DNA of 41,835 nt from Flavobacteriales bacterium (GTDB taxonomy: Bacteria; Bacteroidota; Bacteroidia; Flavobacteriales; TMED113), in assembly GCA_002718895.1 (NCBI GenBank), contig PBGD01000003.1, positions 51,174 to 93,008 of the forward strand. The letters are read 5' to 3'. The position numbers were made by a program, and so were the translations under genes. Of this stretch, positions 12,170 to 37,785 are shown piece by piece (positions within the stretch are counted from its first letter, which is position 1; every line of letters starts with the position of its first letter). The notes below the pieces were generated by a model. That model ran no database searches. It had not been told where the DNA came from and worked only from the letters and a program-made list of their open reading frames with translations.

Positions 12170-12697
12170 ATGTATAAATTATCTGTTCTTTTTATAGCAA
12201 TATGTAGTAGTCTGTGTGCACAAGTAGATAGAGGTTATATTGTTGAAGTCGGTGATAAAGCCCCGCTGTTTACAGCAAAAACAATCGATGGTCAGATTAT
12301 AGATATTGAAAAGAGTATTGGCAAAGTGATTATGCTCAAATTTACTGCTAGCTGGTGTAGTGTTTGTATGCATGAGATGCCCGTAATTGAAGAAGAAGTG
12401 TGGCAAAAACATAAAGACAATGATAACTTTATCATGATCGCCTTAACTAAAGACACCGAAAAAAGACCTCAACGTAAAAAGGAAATCAAAACTATAATTG
12501 AAAAAACTAGAGTCACATATCCTATTGGAATTGATTACAACTCTAGAATTTTCAACATGTTTGCAGAAGAAAAAGCAGGTGTTACGAGGAGCATTATAAT
12601 TGATCAAAATGGTGACATTGCATTCTTAACAAGATTATTCGAAGTAAATGAATTTAATGAAATGAAAAAGACTATTAATAAATTATTAGCAAAATGA
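12170..12697 (+). CDS. TlpA-like periplasmic thioredoxin-fold protein
   Basis: This is probably an exported thiol:disulfide oxidoreductase or peroxiredoxin-like protein. A short signal peptide (residues 1-18, ending SLCAQ) is followed by an AhpC/TlpA-type fold starting [15 protein letters not shown]. The active site is [11 protein letters not shown], with Cys63 and Cys66. The C-terminal half has the [16 protein letters not shown] strand with the characteristic cis-proline replaced: Thr/Arg occupies the place where thioredoxins usually have TP. The gene begins 3 bases after icd and overlaps the BspA-like gene by 4 bases (ATGA), suggesting a coupled pair. Substrates are unknown. The repeat protein downstream has few cysteines, so it is not an obvious client. 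Confidence 0.8.
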
Positions 12698-14400
12698 AAA
12701 AACTATTACTCCTTCTTATTATTCCTTTTTTAAGCTATGGTCAAACACAAATTACACAAAAGAATATTCATCAAGCTGTAGATGAATGGTTAAACGATCC
12801 TGTTTTGGCAGAAGCAACATATGGAAATATAAGTGCTTGGGATGTCAGTAATGTGACTAATATGAATAGTTTGTTTGAATTAGCCAATGCTTTTAATGAG
12901 GATATTAGCAACTGGGATGTAAGTAACGTATCTGATATGGAGAGTATGTTTCTTGGTGCTTCAGAATTTGATCAAGATATTGGTGACTGGGATGTAAGTA
13001 ACGTATCTGATATGGGTAACATGTTTTATTCAGCAAGCTCCTTTAATCAAAATATTGGAAACTGGAACACACAAAATGTTGAAAGCATGAGCTATATGTT
13101 TGCCAACACTATGCTTTTTAATCAAGATATTGGAAGTTGGAACACAAGCAATGTAGAAGAATTCGATGGTATGTTTTGGAGTGCATTAGCTTTTAATCAA
13201 GATATTGGTAACTGGGATACTGGGAATGTAATATATATGCAAGATATGTTTAGTAATGCTGACTCCTTTAATCAGGATATTGGAGACTGGGATATAAGTG
13301 ACGTCCAATTTATGGCAAGTATGTTTAATGATGCTGATTCCTTTAATCAGGACATTGGAAACTGGAATACAGGTAATGTCTCTACCATGAGCTCTATGTT
13401 TCATGATGCTGGAGAATTTGACCAAAATATTGGAAATTGGGACACAGGGAATGTAATTGATATGAGTAGTATGTTTGGTAACGCTGCTTCATTCAATCAG
13501 GACATTGGAAACTGGAACGTAAGTAATGTAACTGATATGGGTGGTTTGTTTCGCATGGCTTTATTATTCAATCAGGATATTGGTAACTGGGATACAGAAA
13601 ATGTAATGTCTATGGCTTCGATGTTTTCTGAAGCCGAGTCTTTTAACCAGGATATTGGAAACTGGAACGTAAGTAATGTAACTAGTATGAGTGATATGTT
13701 TGATAATGCTTCTTCGTTCAATCAGGATATTGGAGACTGGAACGTAAGTAATGTAACTGATATGGCACATATGTTTGCTGGGGCTTCTTTTTTTAATCAG
13801 GATATTGGAGACTGGGATGTTAGTAGTGTAACTCGGATGAGTTATATGTTTTTAAATACTCCCTTTAATCAGGATATTGGAGACTGGGATGCGAGTAATG
13901 TAACTAATATGAAGGGGATGTTTCTTGGTGCTGGAGAATTTGACCAGGATATTGGAGACTGGGATGTGAGTAGTACAACTAATATGTTCGAAATGTTTCG
14001 TGGTGCAATAGAGTTTAATCAGGATATTGGAGGATGGGATGTGAGTATTGTAACTAGTATGGGTGAGATGTTTTATAATTCTGGATTATCAATAAACAAC
14101 TATGACGCAATCCTAATAGGATGGTCTGAATTAGAATTAGAAAATAATGTTTTATTTGGTGGATTTTCACAATATTGTAATGGTGCTGATGCAAGACAAT
14201 ATATTATTGATAATTTCAATTGGGTAATAAACGATGGTGGTCTATCTGATGATTGTGACAACACCTACATAAAAGAACAAACTGAATATAAAAATTTAAT
14301 TACAAAAAAAGATATCCTAGGAAGAGAAACCACTAACAAAGGCTTCCAATTAAATATCTATGATGATGGTTCTATAGAGAAAAAATATCTTGTCGAATAA
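12694..14400 (+). CDS. BspA-type (DUF285) repeat surface protein
   Basis: This is a secreted protein of 568 residues. A signal peptide (1-16, ending LSYGQ) and a short lead-in precede about 17 tandem copies of a 25-residue unit, roughly [20 protein letters not shown] plus five variable residues (residues 46-465). This is the DUF285/BspA leucine-rich-repeat type known from bacterial surface proteins that bind host or matrix molecules. After the repeats comes a cap region with two cysteines and a basic C-terminal tail, [20 protein letters not shown], ending in EKKYLVE. The DxLGRE core resembles the end of T9SS type A sorting domains but lacks the usual PNP segment. Outer-membrane or extracellular location is therefore likely. 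It overlaps the thioredoxin gene by 4 bases. Confidence 0.88.
12829..14088 (+). repeat. tandem 75-bp coding repeats (DUF285 units)
   Basis: About 17 consecutive units of 75 bases lie in frame inside the BspA-like gene. The first is partial and one (around 13793-13864) is 72 bases, missing a codon. The segment coding for FNQDIG(N/D)W is nearly identical at DNA level in the later units, while the last five residues of each unit vary. The period and codon phase make this a protein repeat and not a CRISPR array. Confidence 0.9.
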
Positions 14401-32196: not shown

Positions 32197-32419
32197 CAAA
32201 AAGAAATTTAGAAAAGGAATTAAAAAAATAGGTGTCGCAATTGCATTGTTACCTGGACCCATTTTATTTGTAGCAGGTAGTCACAATGACAATCTATCTG
32301 CTATAATTAAATTTTCTCTACCTATTATTGGAGTTATATGTATGGCTATTAGCTTAATCATGGGGATTATAGGATTGAAAATAATACTATCAAGTTTTTT
32401 TGAAAAACCTAACGAGTAA
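32186..32419 (+). CDS. DUF6095-like small membrane protein
   Basis: This 77-residue protein has a basic N-terminus (LDKKKFRKGIKKI) and two hydrophobic helices (about 15-31 and 43-70) joined by a short polar loop (AGSHNDNLSA). The pattern and its position directly behind murQ match flavobacterial DUF6095 proteins, whose function is unknown. It overlaps murQ by 11 bases at the start. At the end it overlaps the convergent yaaA by 11 bases. Confidence 0.72.
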   Translation: MILDKKKFRKGIKKIGVAIALLPGPILFVAGSHNDNLSAIIKFSLPIIGVICMAISLIMGIIGLKIILSSFFEKPNE

Positions 32420-33173
32420 AAACTAAACTATTTGGTTGTGATTTTTCCACATCAAATCTGTAACCCAAGCGATTAAATTTTTTTAAATCCTCTATATTTT
32501 GAATTTGATTTTGTATCACAAATGATGCCATCGCGCCTCTTGCCTTCTTAGCAAAGAAACTGATAGTCTTATAAACGTTATTTTTTAAATCTAAAAACTT
32601 TACATCAATAATACTAGCCTTAAGTTTATTTTGCACAATTGAGGAAAAATACTCATTAGATGCTAAGTTTAAAATTTGTTTAGAATTGTTTTTTAGCAAG
32701 CAATCATTTAAAGAGCGGGTTATTTTTTCACCCCAAAAATCATATAAATTTTTACCTTTTTTTGTTTTTAATTTAGTTCCCATTTCCAATCTATATGGTT
32801 TAATTAAATCAAGGGGTCTTAAAACTCCATGGAGACCTGATAAAACTCTAAGATAATTTTGAGAATAATTTAAATCATCTATTGAAAACTTTTCTACATC
32901 CAACCCAATATAGACACCCCCCTTAAAACAAAAAATTGATTGCTTAGAATTAGATAAATTAAATTCACTGGTCCAATTATGAAATCTTTCGTAATTAATT
33001 TCACTTAAGTTGTGACTTATTTTCATAGTAGTGGAAATATCTTTTATACTAAGTTTTTTTAATACCTTAATTAAACTATCGCTTTCTGACAAGAATTGAG
33101 GTATCGTAAATTGTGAAGAACTATTTAATGTTTCAAAATCTAAAGTTTTAGCTGGCGAAAGAATAGTAATCAT
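32409..33173 (-). CDS. yaaA: peroxide stress protein YaaA
   Basis: YaaA lowers intracellular free iron and limits damage during hydrogen peroxide stress; it binds DNA in E. coli. The 254-residue protein matches the family from end to end. It begins MITILSPAKTLDFE, with YLRVLSGLHGVLRPLDLIKP, YRLEMGTKLKTKKGKNLYDF and the late KKARGAMASFVIQNQI block. The gene starts 3 bases after the stop of the MbnH-like peroxidase gene, so it may be co-transcribed with the MbnP/MbnH-like pair. Pairing a peroxide-stress protein with a diheme peroxidase-family enzyme is suggestive. Its 3' end overlaps the DUF6095 gene. Confidence 0.94.
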   Translation of the reverse strand: MITILSPAKTLDFETLNSSSQFTIPQFLSESDSLIKVLKKLSIKDISTTMKISHNLSEINYERFHNWTSEFNLSNSKQSIFCFKGGVYIGLDVEKFSIDDLNYSQNYLRVLSGLHGVLRPLDLIKPYRLEMGTKLKTKKGKNLYDFWGEKITRSLNDCLLKNNSKQILNLASNEYFSSIVQNKLKASIIDVKFLDLKNNVYKTISFFAKKARGAMASFVIQNQIQNIEDLKKFNRLGYRFDVEKSQPNSLVFTR

Positions 33174-33176
33174 ATA

Positions 33177-34349
33177 TTATTGGTTAAAAGGATTAGATAA
33201 ATTAGGATTAGTAATAAAAGACTCATCAGATAAAGTTAAAAGAAATGCTTTTAAATCAGATTTTTCTTGATCTGTTAAATATAATCCTCTTTCGTTGGGA
33301 ATATTATAAGGGTTAGTATAAATATATTTCATTAAAGGATCAACTGTAGGAGAGTCAAAGCCACCAGAGTTATAATGTTCAATAACTTCGTCAATTGTAT
33401 TAAATCGGCCATCATGCATATATGGAGCAGAATACTCAATGTTTCGTAAAGTAGGTGTTTTAAATAGTCCTCTATCATTAATATTATTTGTAATATTAAA
33501 ACGACCTAAATCTGTAAAAACTGAATCTATACCATTATTTCTAAATTGATTATCAGTTGTTAAATATAAAGGGTGGCAATGAAAACAATCCCCCTTTTCA
33601 CTATTGTAAATTGATAAACCATTGCTCTCACTCATTGAAAGTGTGTATTGTCCTCTTAAAAATTGATCAAACTTTGAATTTGTTGAGTTTATGGTTCTTT
33701 CAAACTGAGCTAATGCATTTAAGACATGTGAAGAATCTATTTTTTCAACACCAAAAGCAGCACAAAACAAATCTTGATAAAAAGGGGAATTACTCAATCT
33801 GCTTATTACTTCACACCAATCACTGTTATTTAATTCGTGTTGATTGAAAATTGGGCGACTTGCTTGACTTTCAAGGGAAATAGATTTACCATCCCAATCA
33901 AATGACTGTTCATGAAAAATAAGATTTAACATTGCTGGCGTATTTCGATTAGACAATACACCTCCGACTCCAGGACTAAACTGTGTTTTATCTCCAAAAG
34001 CATATTCTTGTTTGTGACACGATGCACATGAGACAGTATTATCTGAGCTTAAAATCGGATCATAAAACAAGTGTCTACCTAGATTAATACCAGCCTCAGT
34101 TAGTGGATTTTCAAAAGAATTATTAGGTAATGGGAACCCTAAAACAGGCTCAACAATTACATTTGAAGTTGGTTGATAATTACAAGGCCATTCATCACTA
34201 TATACACAAGATCCATCATCTTCCTGAGCATTTATATTAAAATTACATGCAAGAGGATCTGTACACCCCGGCATGCATTTAGGTTCATATTTATCACATG
34301 AGTGAATTAAAATAAATATAGTTGTAAAAAAATAGATTTTTTTTTTCAT
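33177..34349 (-). CDS. diheme cytochrome c peroxidase/MbnH-like lipoprotein
   Basis: This exported protein of 390 residues carries two c-type hemes. The sites are CASCH (108-112) and CFHCH (255-259). Family segments include AGINLGRHLFYDPILSSDNT, ALAQFERTINSTNSKFDQFL and LFKTPTLRNIEYSAPYMHDG. The layout matches the bacterial cytochrome c peroxidase/MauG/MbnH superfamily. The N-terminus has a lipoprotein-like signal ending at Cys18. After it comes a cysteine motif GCTDPLACNFNINAQEDDGS (29-48) that recurs in the neighbouring MbnP-like protein. Adjacency to an MbnP-like gene (3-base gap) favours an MbnH role, meaning tryptophan oxidation of the partner, over simple peroxide removal. That is inference from context. 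Confidence 0.85.
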   Translation of the reverse strand: MKKKIYFFTTIFILIHSCDKYEPKCMPGCTDPLACNFNINAQEDDGSCVYSDEWPCNYQPTSNVIVEPVLGFPLPNNSFENPLTEAGINLGRHLFYDPILSSDNTVSCASCHKQEYAFGDKTQFSPGVGGVLSNRNTPAMLNLIFHEQSFDWDGKSISLESQASRPIFNQHELNNSDWCEVISRLSNSPFYQDLFCAAFGVEKIDSSHVLNALAQFERTINSTNSKFDQFLRGQYTLSMSESNGLSIYNSEKGDCFHCHPLYLTTDNQFRNNGIDSVFTDLGRFNITNNINDRGLFKTPTLRNIEYSAPYMHDGRFNTIDEVIEHYNSGGFDSPTVDPLMKYIYTNPYNIPNERGLYLTDQEKSDLKAFLLTLSDESFITNPNLSNPFNQ

Positions 34350-34352
34350 GAA

Positions 34353-35183
34353 TTAATACTGAGTGATTATTGAAAAAACATTATTTGCATTTTCAAATAA
34401 ATTTGTTTGTGTTTGAATATCATCCATTATTGAAGGTTTAATATCATGAATGGGATTATCATACCAGTTATTAATATTCATTACCAATGTAATTTCAGCA
34501 GATGGAGGAAAATCAAATTTTGGATACAAAATTGAAAAATCCTGACCATTTGTAGGACCAGTATGGAGACTATATCCTTTTTGTTGACCTTGATCATCAA
34601 TATACCTACCATCTACTTGCATATAATGATAGCCGCCCAGCTGATTAACTGATGATGTACTTTGACCAAATGAATTAGGCCAATCCATTAAATCATGGAA
34701 ATTATAGTCTTCATTAATATATAGCAAATCTATGTTGTTTTCAGCTGATAAACCAAATCTAAATTCCATACCAATACATAAACCTGGTAAATTGTTAAAT
34801 ATATAAGACGATGTTTCATTATTGTCGGAGTTAAAAAATATTATTTCATCAAATTGTACTATTTCATCATTTTGAAAATATAATTTCAAATCACTAATAA
34901 CATATTTTATTTTGGATACACTATAATTAGTTCCATTTACATTATGAAATAAAAAATTATTGTTCCCATAAATTATGGCAGAACCGTCAACAAGATTATC
35001 AAAATTAAGAGTCAGATTAGTGTAAATACAACTTTTATCATTTATTGTGGCATCAGAATCATAATTGTCAGCATTTAAATCAATACATCCATATATATCT
35101 TTTTTACATGAAGAAAAAAATAAACATATAGAAAAAATTAAAAATAATGCTCTTAAATTACTATATTTTGTATTACAAATCAT
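34353..35183 (-). CDS. MbnP-like lipoprotein
   Basis: This 276-residue exported protein has a lipobox LFFSSC with Cys26. Behind it lies the motif GCIDLNADNYDSDATINDKS (32-51), also found in the adjacent diheme protein. The main domain follows the MbnP pattern. LTLNFDNLVDGS comes first, then VSKIKYVISDLKLYF, DLMDWPNSF (Trp168), GGYHYMQVDGRY and GYSLHTGP with His207. MbnP is a periplasmic protein that binds copper after MbnH converts a Trp to kynurenine. Whether the key Trp and copper ligands are retained needs alignment. It heads the MbnP-MbnH-yaaA run and is divergent from the subtilase with only 10 bases between start codons. Confidence 0.78.
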   Translation of the reverse strand: MICNTKYSNLRALFLIFSICLFFSSCKKDIYGCIDLNADNYDSDATINDKSCIYTNLTLNFDNLVDGSAIIYGNNNFLFHNVNGTNYSVSKIKYVISDLKLYFQNDEIVQFDEIIFFNSDNNETSSYIFNNLPGLCIGMEFRFGLSAENNIDLLYINEDYNFHDLMDWPNSFGQSTSSVNQLGGYHYMQVDGRYIDDQGQQKGYSLHTGPTNGQDFSILYPKFDFPPSAEITLVMNINNWYDNPIHDIKPSIMDDIQTQTNLFENANNVFSIITQY

Positions 35184-35193
35184 AAACTAAAAC

Positions 35194-37785
35194 ATGAAGC
35201 ATGTACTATTAATAACTAATTTAATATTATTTCAGTATATAACCTGTGCACAAGGAGTATTAAATAAATCATTGATTGATGAAATGAACAATACAAGATT
35301 GGATGAGTATATTCCAATAGTTATTGAAATTAAAGATGATTTCGATGTCTTAAAAATTAAGGAAGAATTTAATAATTCTAAAACACCTGTAAAACAAAGG
35401 GCATCTATTATTTGTCAAAGAATGCAAAGCATCGCCAATGAGACTCAAAAAGACATTTTAAATTTTATTAAAAATAGTGAAGATTATCAAAACCTAACTT
35501 CATCATGGATTATTAATTGCATTTTTCTCGAAGCAAGAAAAAATCTAATTGATTCAATTTCAAATCATTCAGATATTCAAATAATTAATTTACAAAATAC
35601 TCAAGCTGATATAATTGAATACTTTAATAATGACTCACATAATAACATAGAAATTGAAAATGGCACTGAACCAGGAATTGAAGCCATCAATGTGCGTCCT
35701 TTATGGGACATGGGCTATACCGGGAGAGGTGGATTAGTTTTTAATTATGATACTGGGGTTTGGCCTGAACACCCTGCATATAAAAAAGGGTTTTTTGCAA
35801 ATTTTTACCCTATGAATCAATGTTGGGATGGATATTTTAGTGACTATCCAAATGGACATATTAGTGATCATGGAACACACACATTAGGTACAATAGCAGG
35901 CTTAGTAGCACCATCGAATGACACTATTGGAATTGCTTTTAATGCATATTGGATTGCAAATGACTTTGTTACTTCAACAGTTGAAACACTACCTCCAATA
36001 CAGGATATGATCACATCATTTGAATGGGCTCTAAATCCTGATAATGACCTATCAACTTACCATGATGTTCCTGATGTTATAAATAACTCTTGGAGATGGT
36101 ATAATGAAATAGACACATTTCAATGTGATGGATATGCTGTGGAATTAATGAACGTAATTGAAGCTGCAGGTATAGCCAATATTTTTTCTGCTGGAAATAA
36201 TGGACCTAATAATACAGGCGTAAGATCTCCTCAAAGAATTAATTCAAATTTAGTCAACACTTTTTGTGTTGGAAGTATAAATGCTAACAATCAAGACTTA
36301 TTAATTAGTACATTTTCTTGCAGAGGTCCTACTCAGTGTCCTGGTGAAGGGTCATTATCAATATACCCCGAAGTTGTTGCTCCAGGTCAAAATATTCGAT
36401 CTGCATGGGGAAATGACGGGTTTAATACAATTTCAGGCACTTCAATGGCTTCGCCTCACGTTTCTGGAGCAGTATTATTATTAAAAGAAGCTTTTCCATT
36501 TCTGTCAGGGGAAGAAATACTCCTGGCACTTTATAATACAGCAAATGATTTAGGAGAATTAGGAGAAGACAATATATACGGTATGGGAATTATTGACGCA
36601 TATGCAGCATTTAATTATCTTTCAAATAATTACATCCCTGAAGCACCAAAAATAAATAATGGAATAGAATTAATTAATGTAAGTAATCAACCTCAAAGAA
36701 TTAATTGTCAACAATATTTAAACCCTGTACTAAATATTTTTAACCATACAGATTCTATTATACCGCAACTAAAAGTTAGTTTTAAAGAATATGCATATAA
36801 TATGGATGTTGATTCCTTAATATTTAACACTGATTTAGGACCTTACGAATTCACTTCTATTCAAATCCCAAATATAGAAATTGAAAATTATGGTGATAAT
36901 GAGTATATGTTTAAAGTCAATACTATCAATTCATTAGTAGAAAATGACTATCACAATAATCAAAAAATGATTAGATTTAAACATAAACCCTTATTTGAAA
37001 CACCATATCATGAAGATTTTGAAAACGGAATTAAAGAGAATGACTGGCACATAGAAAATAATGATTATTATAGAACTTGGGATACAATTTCTACACAATC
37101 TAACATGCAAAATAATATAGCTGCTTATGTGAATTTATCAGGATATAATCCAAGAGCTCAACAAAAAGATGCACTCATTAGTCCCAACATTGTTTTAAAC
37201 ATGGACACTACTTTTATCCGTTTTAAATATGCTTATCAAAAAGCAAATAATTCATCTAAACAAGATACTTTAACAGTCTATGTGTCTACAAATTGTGGTG
37301 CAAGTTTTAATGACACAATATTTCAAAGCGGTGGAGATGATTTAAGCTCATTTAATATAGTAACACCTAATTTCATCCCACAAAACAATGATCAATGGCG
37401 TGATACAATAATTAATCTAAGCAATTATTTATCCCAAGAAATAATGTTAAAATTTGAGACTACTAATTTAAGAGGGAACAATATATTTATTGATGACATA
37501 GAGATATATAACAATGACAATAACAATGTAACTATTACAGAAAAAAAATTAGAAATTTCAATTAGACCAAATCCATCAAAAGGAATATTTGAAATTAATT
37601 CATATCAAAATTTTATTAATGATATTTTAGTTTATAGTAGCACTGGGCAATTAATAAAAAAAATAAATACTAATAATACTTTAGAAAATTTTAAACTAGA
37701 TTTAGGTAAAAACAGAGATGGTTTATATTTTTTAGAAGTTAAAACAAATAATACTCAATCAATCTATAGAATAATTAAACAATAG
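35194..37785 (+). CDS. T9SS-secreted subtilisin-like serine peptidase (S8)
   Basis: This secreted protease has 863 residues. A signal peptide (1-19, ending ITCAQ) and a propeptide-like region (20-150) precede the S8 domain. The triad is Asp186 in YDTGVWPEH, His226 in HGTHTLGT and Ser417 in GTSMASPHVSG; the oxyanion Asn lies in SAGNNGPNN. Downstream are a beta-rich region and a MAM/choice-of-anchor J-like sandwich (about 605-775, closing NNIFIDDIEIYN). A T9SS type A tail (from RPNPSKGIFEI to the end) completes it. It lies between the MbnP/MbnH-like pair and the YceI/DUF5777 operon, facing away from the first and towards the second. A role in that redox locus is not shown. Confidence 0.93.
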   Translation: MKHVLLITNLILFQYITCAQGVLNKSLIDEMNNTRLDEYIPIVIEIKDDFDVLKIKEEFNNSKTPVKQRASIICQRMQSIANETQKDILNFIKNSEDYQNLTSSWIINCIFLEARKNLIDSISNHSDIQIINLQNTQADIIEYFNNDSHNNIEIENGTEPGIEAINVRPLWDMGYTGRGGLVFNYDTGVWPEHPAYKKGFFANFYPMNQCWDGYFSDYPNGHISDHGTHTLGTIAGLVAPSNDTIGIAFNAYWIANDFVTSTVETLPPIQDMITSFEWALNPDNDLSTYHDVPDVINNSWRWYNEIDTFQCDGYAVELMNVIEAAGIANIFSAGNNGPNNTGVRSPQRINSNLVNTFCVGSINANNQDLLISTFSCRGPTQCPGEGSLSIYPEVVAPGQNIRSAWGNDGFNTISGTSMASPHVSGAVLLLKEAFPFLSGEEILLALYNTANDLGELGEDNIYGMGIIDAYAAFNYLSNNYIPEAPKINNGIELINVSNQPQRINCQQYLNPVLNIFNHTDSIIPQLKVSFKEYAYNMDVDSLIFNTDLGPYEFTSIQIPNIEIENYGDNEYMFKVNTINSLVENDYHNNQKMIRFKHKPLFETPYHEDFENGIKENDWHIENNDYYRTWDTISTQSNMQNNIAAYVNLSGYNPRAQQKDALISPNIVLNMDTTFIRFKYAYQKANNSSKQDTLTVYVSTNCGASFNDTIFQSGGDDLSSFNIVTPNFIPQNNDQWRDTIINLSNYLSQEIMLKFETTNLRGNNIFIDDIEIYNNDNNNVTITEKKLEISIRPNPSKGIFEINSYQNFINDILVYSSTGQLIKKINTNNTLENFKLDLGKNRDGLYFLEVKTNNTQSIYRIIKQ

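Follow-up and report, generated by a model that had tools for sequence, protein, structure and literature searches.

Manesis et al. (PNAS, 2021) are reported to have shown that MbnP takes up one Cu(I) once MbnH has oxidised the first Trp in its WxW motif. To our knowledge, the chemistry of MbnP and MbnH rests on one methanotroph pair. A 2013 paper reported that MbnP/MbnH pairs commonly lie outside methanobactin loci and described the MbnP sequence as not markedly similar to MopE or CorA (PMC3621798). The Cu(I) site of CorA comprises kynurenine and two histidines (Kyn/2 His; PMC3912023). In the diheme enzyme MauG, Tyr294 occupies the axial position that is occupied by Met or His in peroxidases (PMC7567364).

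Here we analyse a 41,835-nucleotide stretch of DNA from a Flavobacteriales bacterium (the window) that contains an adjoining pair of lipoprotein genes of this kind.

Results

The window encodes a diverged relative of the MbnP/MbnH pair

The window contains two adjoining genes on the minus strand, one for MbnP (ending at 34353) and one for MbnH (starting at 34349), with a 3-base gap between them and with a lipobox Cys in each product (C26 of MbnP, in the sequence FSSC, and C18 of MbnH, in the sequence HSC; Table 1). A sequence-only reading of the window had given the coordinates and spacing of this lipoprotein pair exactly, and the resemblance to MbnP and MbnH that it had proposed is borne out by profiles, sequence and fold matches in the PDB (7L6G, 6E1C), the tree, and synteny. 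We conclude that the pair is a real, diverged relative of the known MbnP/MbnH pair.

Table 1. Features of the MbnP–MbnH locus, in window coordinates
Feature	Position	Strand	Remarks
YaaA peroxide-stress protein	32409..33173	-	PF03883, 279 bits; 3 bases downstream of MbnH
MbnH-type diheme c oxidase lipoprotein	33177..34349	-	390 aa; CxxCH at 108-112 and 255-259
Codon of MbnH Tyr326	33372..33374	-	MauG/MbnH-type axial ligand position (Met in peroxidases)
Cys module of MbnH	34206..34268	-	residues 28-48; generic module
MbnP-family lipoprotein	34353..35183	-	276 aa; WP-type, M166-x-W168-P169; PF20243 and AlphaFold2 fold
Codon of MbnP His207 (HTG)	34563..34565	-	candidate copper ligand; invariant in 39 MbnPs and in 47 WP-type MbnPs
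Codon of MbnP His186 (GGYH)	34626..34628	-	candidate copper ligand of the WP-type subfamily; in 46 of 47 WP-type MbnPs, one unreadable
Codon of MbnP Trp168	34680..34682	-	candidate kynurenine precursor; invariant in 39 MbnPs; aligns with first Trp of WxW
Cys module of MbnP	35028..35090	-	residues 32-52; generic module

The upstream lipoprotein scores 63.3 bits with the PF20243 MbnP profile (cut-off 27), and has no match at E 0.01 to TIGR04052, the NCBIfam model of the four-Cys MbnP type. A search of solved structures with an MbnP profile retrieved 7L6G, the MbnP of strain OB3b (E 0.0018), and 7L6G is also the sole significant PDB fold match of the AlphaFold2 model of the protein (pLDDT 83.9; E 1.3e-6 to 7.5e-6; TM ~0.5). 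In the model, residues 169-184 form a low-confidence loop, with Trp168 positioned at its border. CorA and MopE are absent among the 50 fold matches listed for the window MbnP, in which W168 is followed by P-N, not by x-H. No plasmid copies of the window MbnP were found.

The downstream lipoprotein contains two heme motifs (C108/C111/H112 and C255/C258/H259) and scores 178.2 bits with the CCP_MauG profile (cut-off 25.6). Its best NCBIfam model is TIGR04039, the MbnH-family model, at 265.1 bits, which is below the curated cut-off of 362.85; the MauG model follows at 184 bits. The top PDB sequence match is 6E1C, the MbnH of Methylosinus trichosporium (1.8e-49; 1.2e-86 by profile), and the AlphaFold2 model (pLDDT 85.6) has 6E1C as its best PDB fold match (E 1.8e-25; TM 0.73).

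The CCP_MauG fold, the retention of the catalytic Glu172 region, and the presence of the YaaA peroxide-stress gene directly 3′ of MbnH in the window's family are also consistent with a conventional lipoprotein cytochrome c peroxidase working alongside YaaA to remove H2O2, next to an MbnP that is a mere copper-binding or structural neighbour. We regard this assignment as unlikely, and it is disfavoured in particular by Tyr326 and by the tree. Specifically, the axial position is Tyr, not Met, in the window MbnH and its paired relatives (VIEHY in the window), as it is in MauG (LFY) and 6E1C (VIDIY), whereas that of peroxidases is Met (as in VNTM of 3O5C). The phylogeny, to which the sequence-only reading had pointed as a check, sets the diheme protein apart from ordinary Met-ligated peroxidases: in a quick-search tree of 51 rows, with MauG on a long branch, the Met-type peroxidases fall on one side (SH-aLRT 99), and the window protein, 6E1C, and the MbnP-paired enzymes fall on the other. 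The consistent pairing with MbnP also argues against a peroxidase, and the YaaA synteny belongs to a larger conserved block.

This block, conserved in the window's family, comprises genes for an S9 peptidase, a cytochrome c, a DUF5777 protein, YceI, a divergent S8 peptidase, MbnP, MbnH, and YaaA, with YaaA located downstream of MbnH wherever the contig extends that far. Because the whole block is kept across the family, the proximity of YaaA, YceI, DUF5777, cytochrome c, and S8 peptidase carries little weight, and we rejected all five as functional partners; none of them accompanies the MbnPs inspected in other families. The MbnP and S8 peptidase genes start divergently on opposite strands, 10 bases apart (window 35183-35194), a tight arrangement that recurs in sister genomes (e.g. 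L049, L050, L051). Elsewhere in the window, a 568-aa protein (12694-14400) consists largely of DUF285 repeats (570 bits, five stretches).

MbnP and MbnH are regularly paired outside methanobactin loci

Of the 395 Bacteroidota genomes sampled, 97 (about a quarter) contain PF20243, as do 11 of the 12 genomes in the family to which the window belongs. An MbnH-like gene adjoins MbnP in 30 of 30 phylum-wide loci, these being the best-scoring ones, and the two genes are likewise adjacent in ten loci of the window's family; one genome of this family (G403) lacks both. The sequence-only reading had set the pair outside a methanobactin context. That placement agrees with the finding of no MbnB-family gene (PF05114) in the window's genome, which is 84.6% complete, but the situation is not unusual: since MbnP is this widespread in the phylum, with MbnH beside it at every one of those 30 loci, it is the normal state of the pair.

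Three further observations concern individual loci. The MbnP frame of genome G398 is broken by one TGA and one TAG (L053 1072-1431), reflecting either a pseudogene or a MAG error. Two MbnH/CCP-type genes stand in tandem beside a single MbnP in L060, L131, L136, and L141. A gene of Ideonella dechloratans (L144 4746-6017) that is named 'methanobactin export MATE transporter MbnM' in PLSDB/RefSeq matches the MbnH profile (282 bits) and adjoins an annotated MbnP, and is likely misannotated.

A subfamily with W-P in place of W-x-W includes the window MbnP

The WxW motif is incomplete in the window MbnP: in the sequence MDWPN, the first Trp is kept, the second is replaced, and a loop is inserted. 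The protein belongs to a Flavobacteriales subfamily (the WP-type subfamily) that has W-P for W-x-W and an invariant 'GGYH' histidine. Across 296 genomes of the order, a WP-type profile gives a clean separation: members score 114-347 bits, and canonical MbnPs stay at or below about 85 bits, apart from a few second fragments of split matches. P169, Y185, His207, P244, and Met253 are invariant in 47 aligned WP-type MbnPs, and His186 is present in 46, with one unreadable.

Beyond the subfamily, Trp168 and His207 are invariant, and Met166 is nearly so, across 39 aligned MbnPs. In canonical MbnPs and the OB3b MbnP (MAWNW), the residue that aligns with Trp168 is the first Trp of MxWxW. The alignment has a soft spot at a relative with the sequence SWNWP (L182), where a gap-free alignment places Trp168 on the second Trp; we prefer the first-Trp alignment because GMYW is common to WP-type (L184) and canonical (L013) proteins. 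On this alignment, Trp168 is the likely candidate substrate of MbnH oxidation.

The pair might instead work through Trp240, or through either of two alternative tryptophans, such that Trp168 would not be the sole substrate. Within the subfamily, the W168 equivalent and the W240 equivalent are each present in 42 of 47 members and no member lacks both, five members of family f1 being without W240 and five different members being without W168. However, W168 is invariant in the 39 diverse MbnPs and is aligned with the known oxidised Trp, whereas five members of the window's family (half of it) have Phe or Ile at the Trp240 position, and Trp240 is not conserved outside the subfamily. We therefore consider the use of Trp240 or of alternative tryptophans improbable. 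The sequence-only reading had offered Trp168 or Trp240 as the equivalent of the oxidised residue; the first holds up, and the second is the weaker candidate in the window's lineage.

The five WP-type members without W168 have Val at that position (L168, L178-L181), two of them with a Trp two residues upstream. The other three, the MbnPs of genus g4 (L178, L179, L180), have no Trp near the WxW/WP site (NFNVP or SFNVP) and keep the W240 equivalent, and the MbnH beside them looks intact, with two CxxCH motifs and the axial Tyr. Because these three MbnH-paired members have no Trp at the site, Trp chemistry is not universal in the WP-type subfamily. A tentative interpretation, which we hold to be possible rather than probable, is that this is a distinct subfamily in which the copper site would comprise one oxidisable Trp, the GGYH histidine, His207, and perhaps Met253, with the oxidised residue moved or dispensable in some members. 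If so, the chemistry of MbnH on MbnP would be more varied than the single known example.

The Cys module present on both lipoproteins is a generic module

Behind the lipidated Cys, both proteins carry the module GC-D-xx-A-x-N-(Y/F)...SC, which starts at residue 32 of MbnP (GCIDLNADNYDSDATINDKSC) and at residue 28 of MbnH (GCTDPLACNFNINAQEDDGSC), just as the sequence-only reading had described. The motif is real, because the full motif was seen in 0 of 200,000 shuffles of the MbnH N-terminus, which rules out a chance origin.

The same reading had proposed that, through the shared module, the two lipoproteins are held together or bind a common ion. The occurrence of the module on both proteins is not chance, and its acidic DDGSC pattern could conceivably bind Ca2+; nevertheless, such a role is highly improbable, in view of the number and distribution of the copies. 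A single 29-residue query retrieves 83 matches from the 1.34-Mb genome of the window (G000), in which the module occurs 73-83 times. These matches lie in 28 reading frames (26 beyond the pair), the longest of 1,216 codons, and by score the MbnP copy is 82nd of the 83. In 10 of 10 sister genomes the MbnH lacks the module, and so do half of the MbnPs. In family f64, where both partners often carry it, its occurrences on the two are independent (8/10 versus 13/16; Fisher p = 1.0). Because genomes of families f1 and f64 contain 27-83 copies each and nine other members of the order that have the pair contain none, the presence of the module tracks with the genome rather than with the pair; pairs that bear it come exclusively from genomes with dozens of copies. 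These results refute the module as a conserved feature of the pair.

An unrelated 180-aa lipoprotein of a Crocinitomicaceae MAG (L032) begins with the same CKKDIYGC...DDGSC. The consensus of the module is GCTDPxACNYxxxAxxDDGSC (G000; L084-L113), for which there is no Pfam model and for which a text search recognised no describing literature. Several copies sit at contig ends (C1, C8, C10, C17, C26), and the repeats may therefore break the assembly. We regard the Cys module as a generic surface-protein module that is specific to the lineage and has no role particular to the pair. It also serves as a warning: sharing a Cys module does not indicate that Flavobacteriales proteins are functionally linked.

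Discussion

Our analysis suggests, with reasonable though not high confidence, that MbnH of this lipoprotein pair oxidises a Trp of MbnP, most likely Trp168, creating a Cu(I) site for copper handling in the envelope. What the data establish is family membership, fold, the heme and axial-ligand motifs, the conserved pairing, and the conserved Trp. Counting against the proposal are the lost second Trp of WxW, the TIGR04039 score under its cut-off, the missing TIGR04052 match, the place of Trp168 at the edge of a low-confidence loop, and the three MbnH-paired relatives with no Trp at the site. In the mechanism that we infer, MbnH, as a MauG-like diheme enzyme, would react with peroxide, or with O2 when its hemes are reduced, to give a high-valent diheme state; MbnH would oxidise one MbnP tryptophan, most likely Trp168, to kynurenine; the kynurenine would complete a copper(I) site, in which His207 and the subfamily-specific His186 are probably also ligands; and MbnP would keep the copper at the cell envelope, serving uptake or homeostasis in a way that does not involve methanobactin. 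Cu(I) might be bound by the window MbnP through His186, His207, and Met253 or Met188.

What is new here is modest, namely, a definable WP-type variant of MbnP; otherwise, the window pair is for the most part a typical representative of a known kind, in its normal context. The subfamily, in which MbnH is kept, WxW is altered, and the presumed substrate Trp is lost in a few members, provides natural variants for probing the oxidised residue and the copper ligands.

Among known systems, bacterial cytochrome c peroxidases (1IQC, 3O5C, YhjA) have the CCP_MauG fold in common with the window MbnH, but have an axial Met and form a separate branch. MauG is likewise a diheme enzyme that has an axial Tyr (Tyr294) and oxidises a Trp of a partner protein, but is distant (26% identity in the fold match to the window MbnH), and no methylamine dehydrogenase is present here. 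CorA/CorB and MopE/SACCP of methanotrophs similarly combine a copper protein with a diheme partner and have kynurenine at the Cu(I) site (PMC3912023). Canonical Bacteroidota pairs (e.g. L002, L013, L021) have the same gene order, the same MbnH type, and the same Trp168 and His207 positions, but their MbnPs contain MxWxW..GYIF and often a C-terminal DHVHN, both of which are missing from the window protein. The MbnP/MbnH pair of Methylosinus trichosporium OB3b (7L6G, 6E1C; PF20243, TIGR04039/TIGR04052, GenProp0940) is one of the closest known systems. The window MbnP differs from its OB3b counterpart in having W-P for W-x-W, an inserted loop, the GGYH histidine, and no TIGR04052 match, and the window differs in having an MbnH below the TIGR04039 cut-off and no Mbn operon. 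The two systems agree in the adjoining genes, the fold, the two CxxCH motifs, the axial Tyr position, the MxW motif, and the downstream MbnP histidine.
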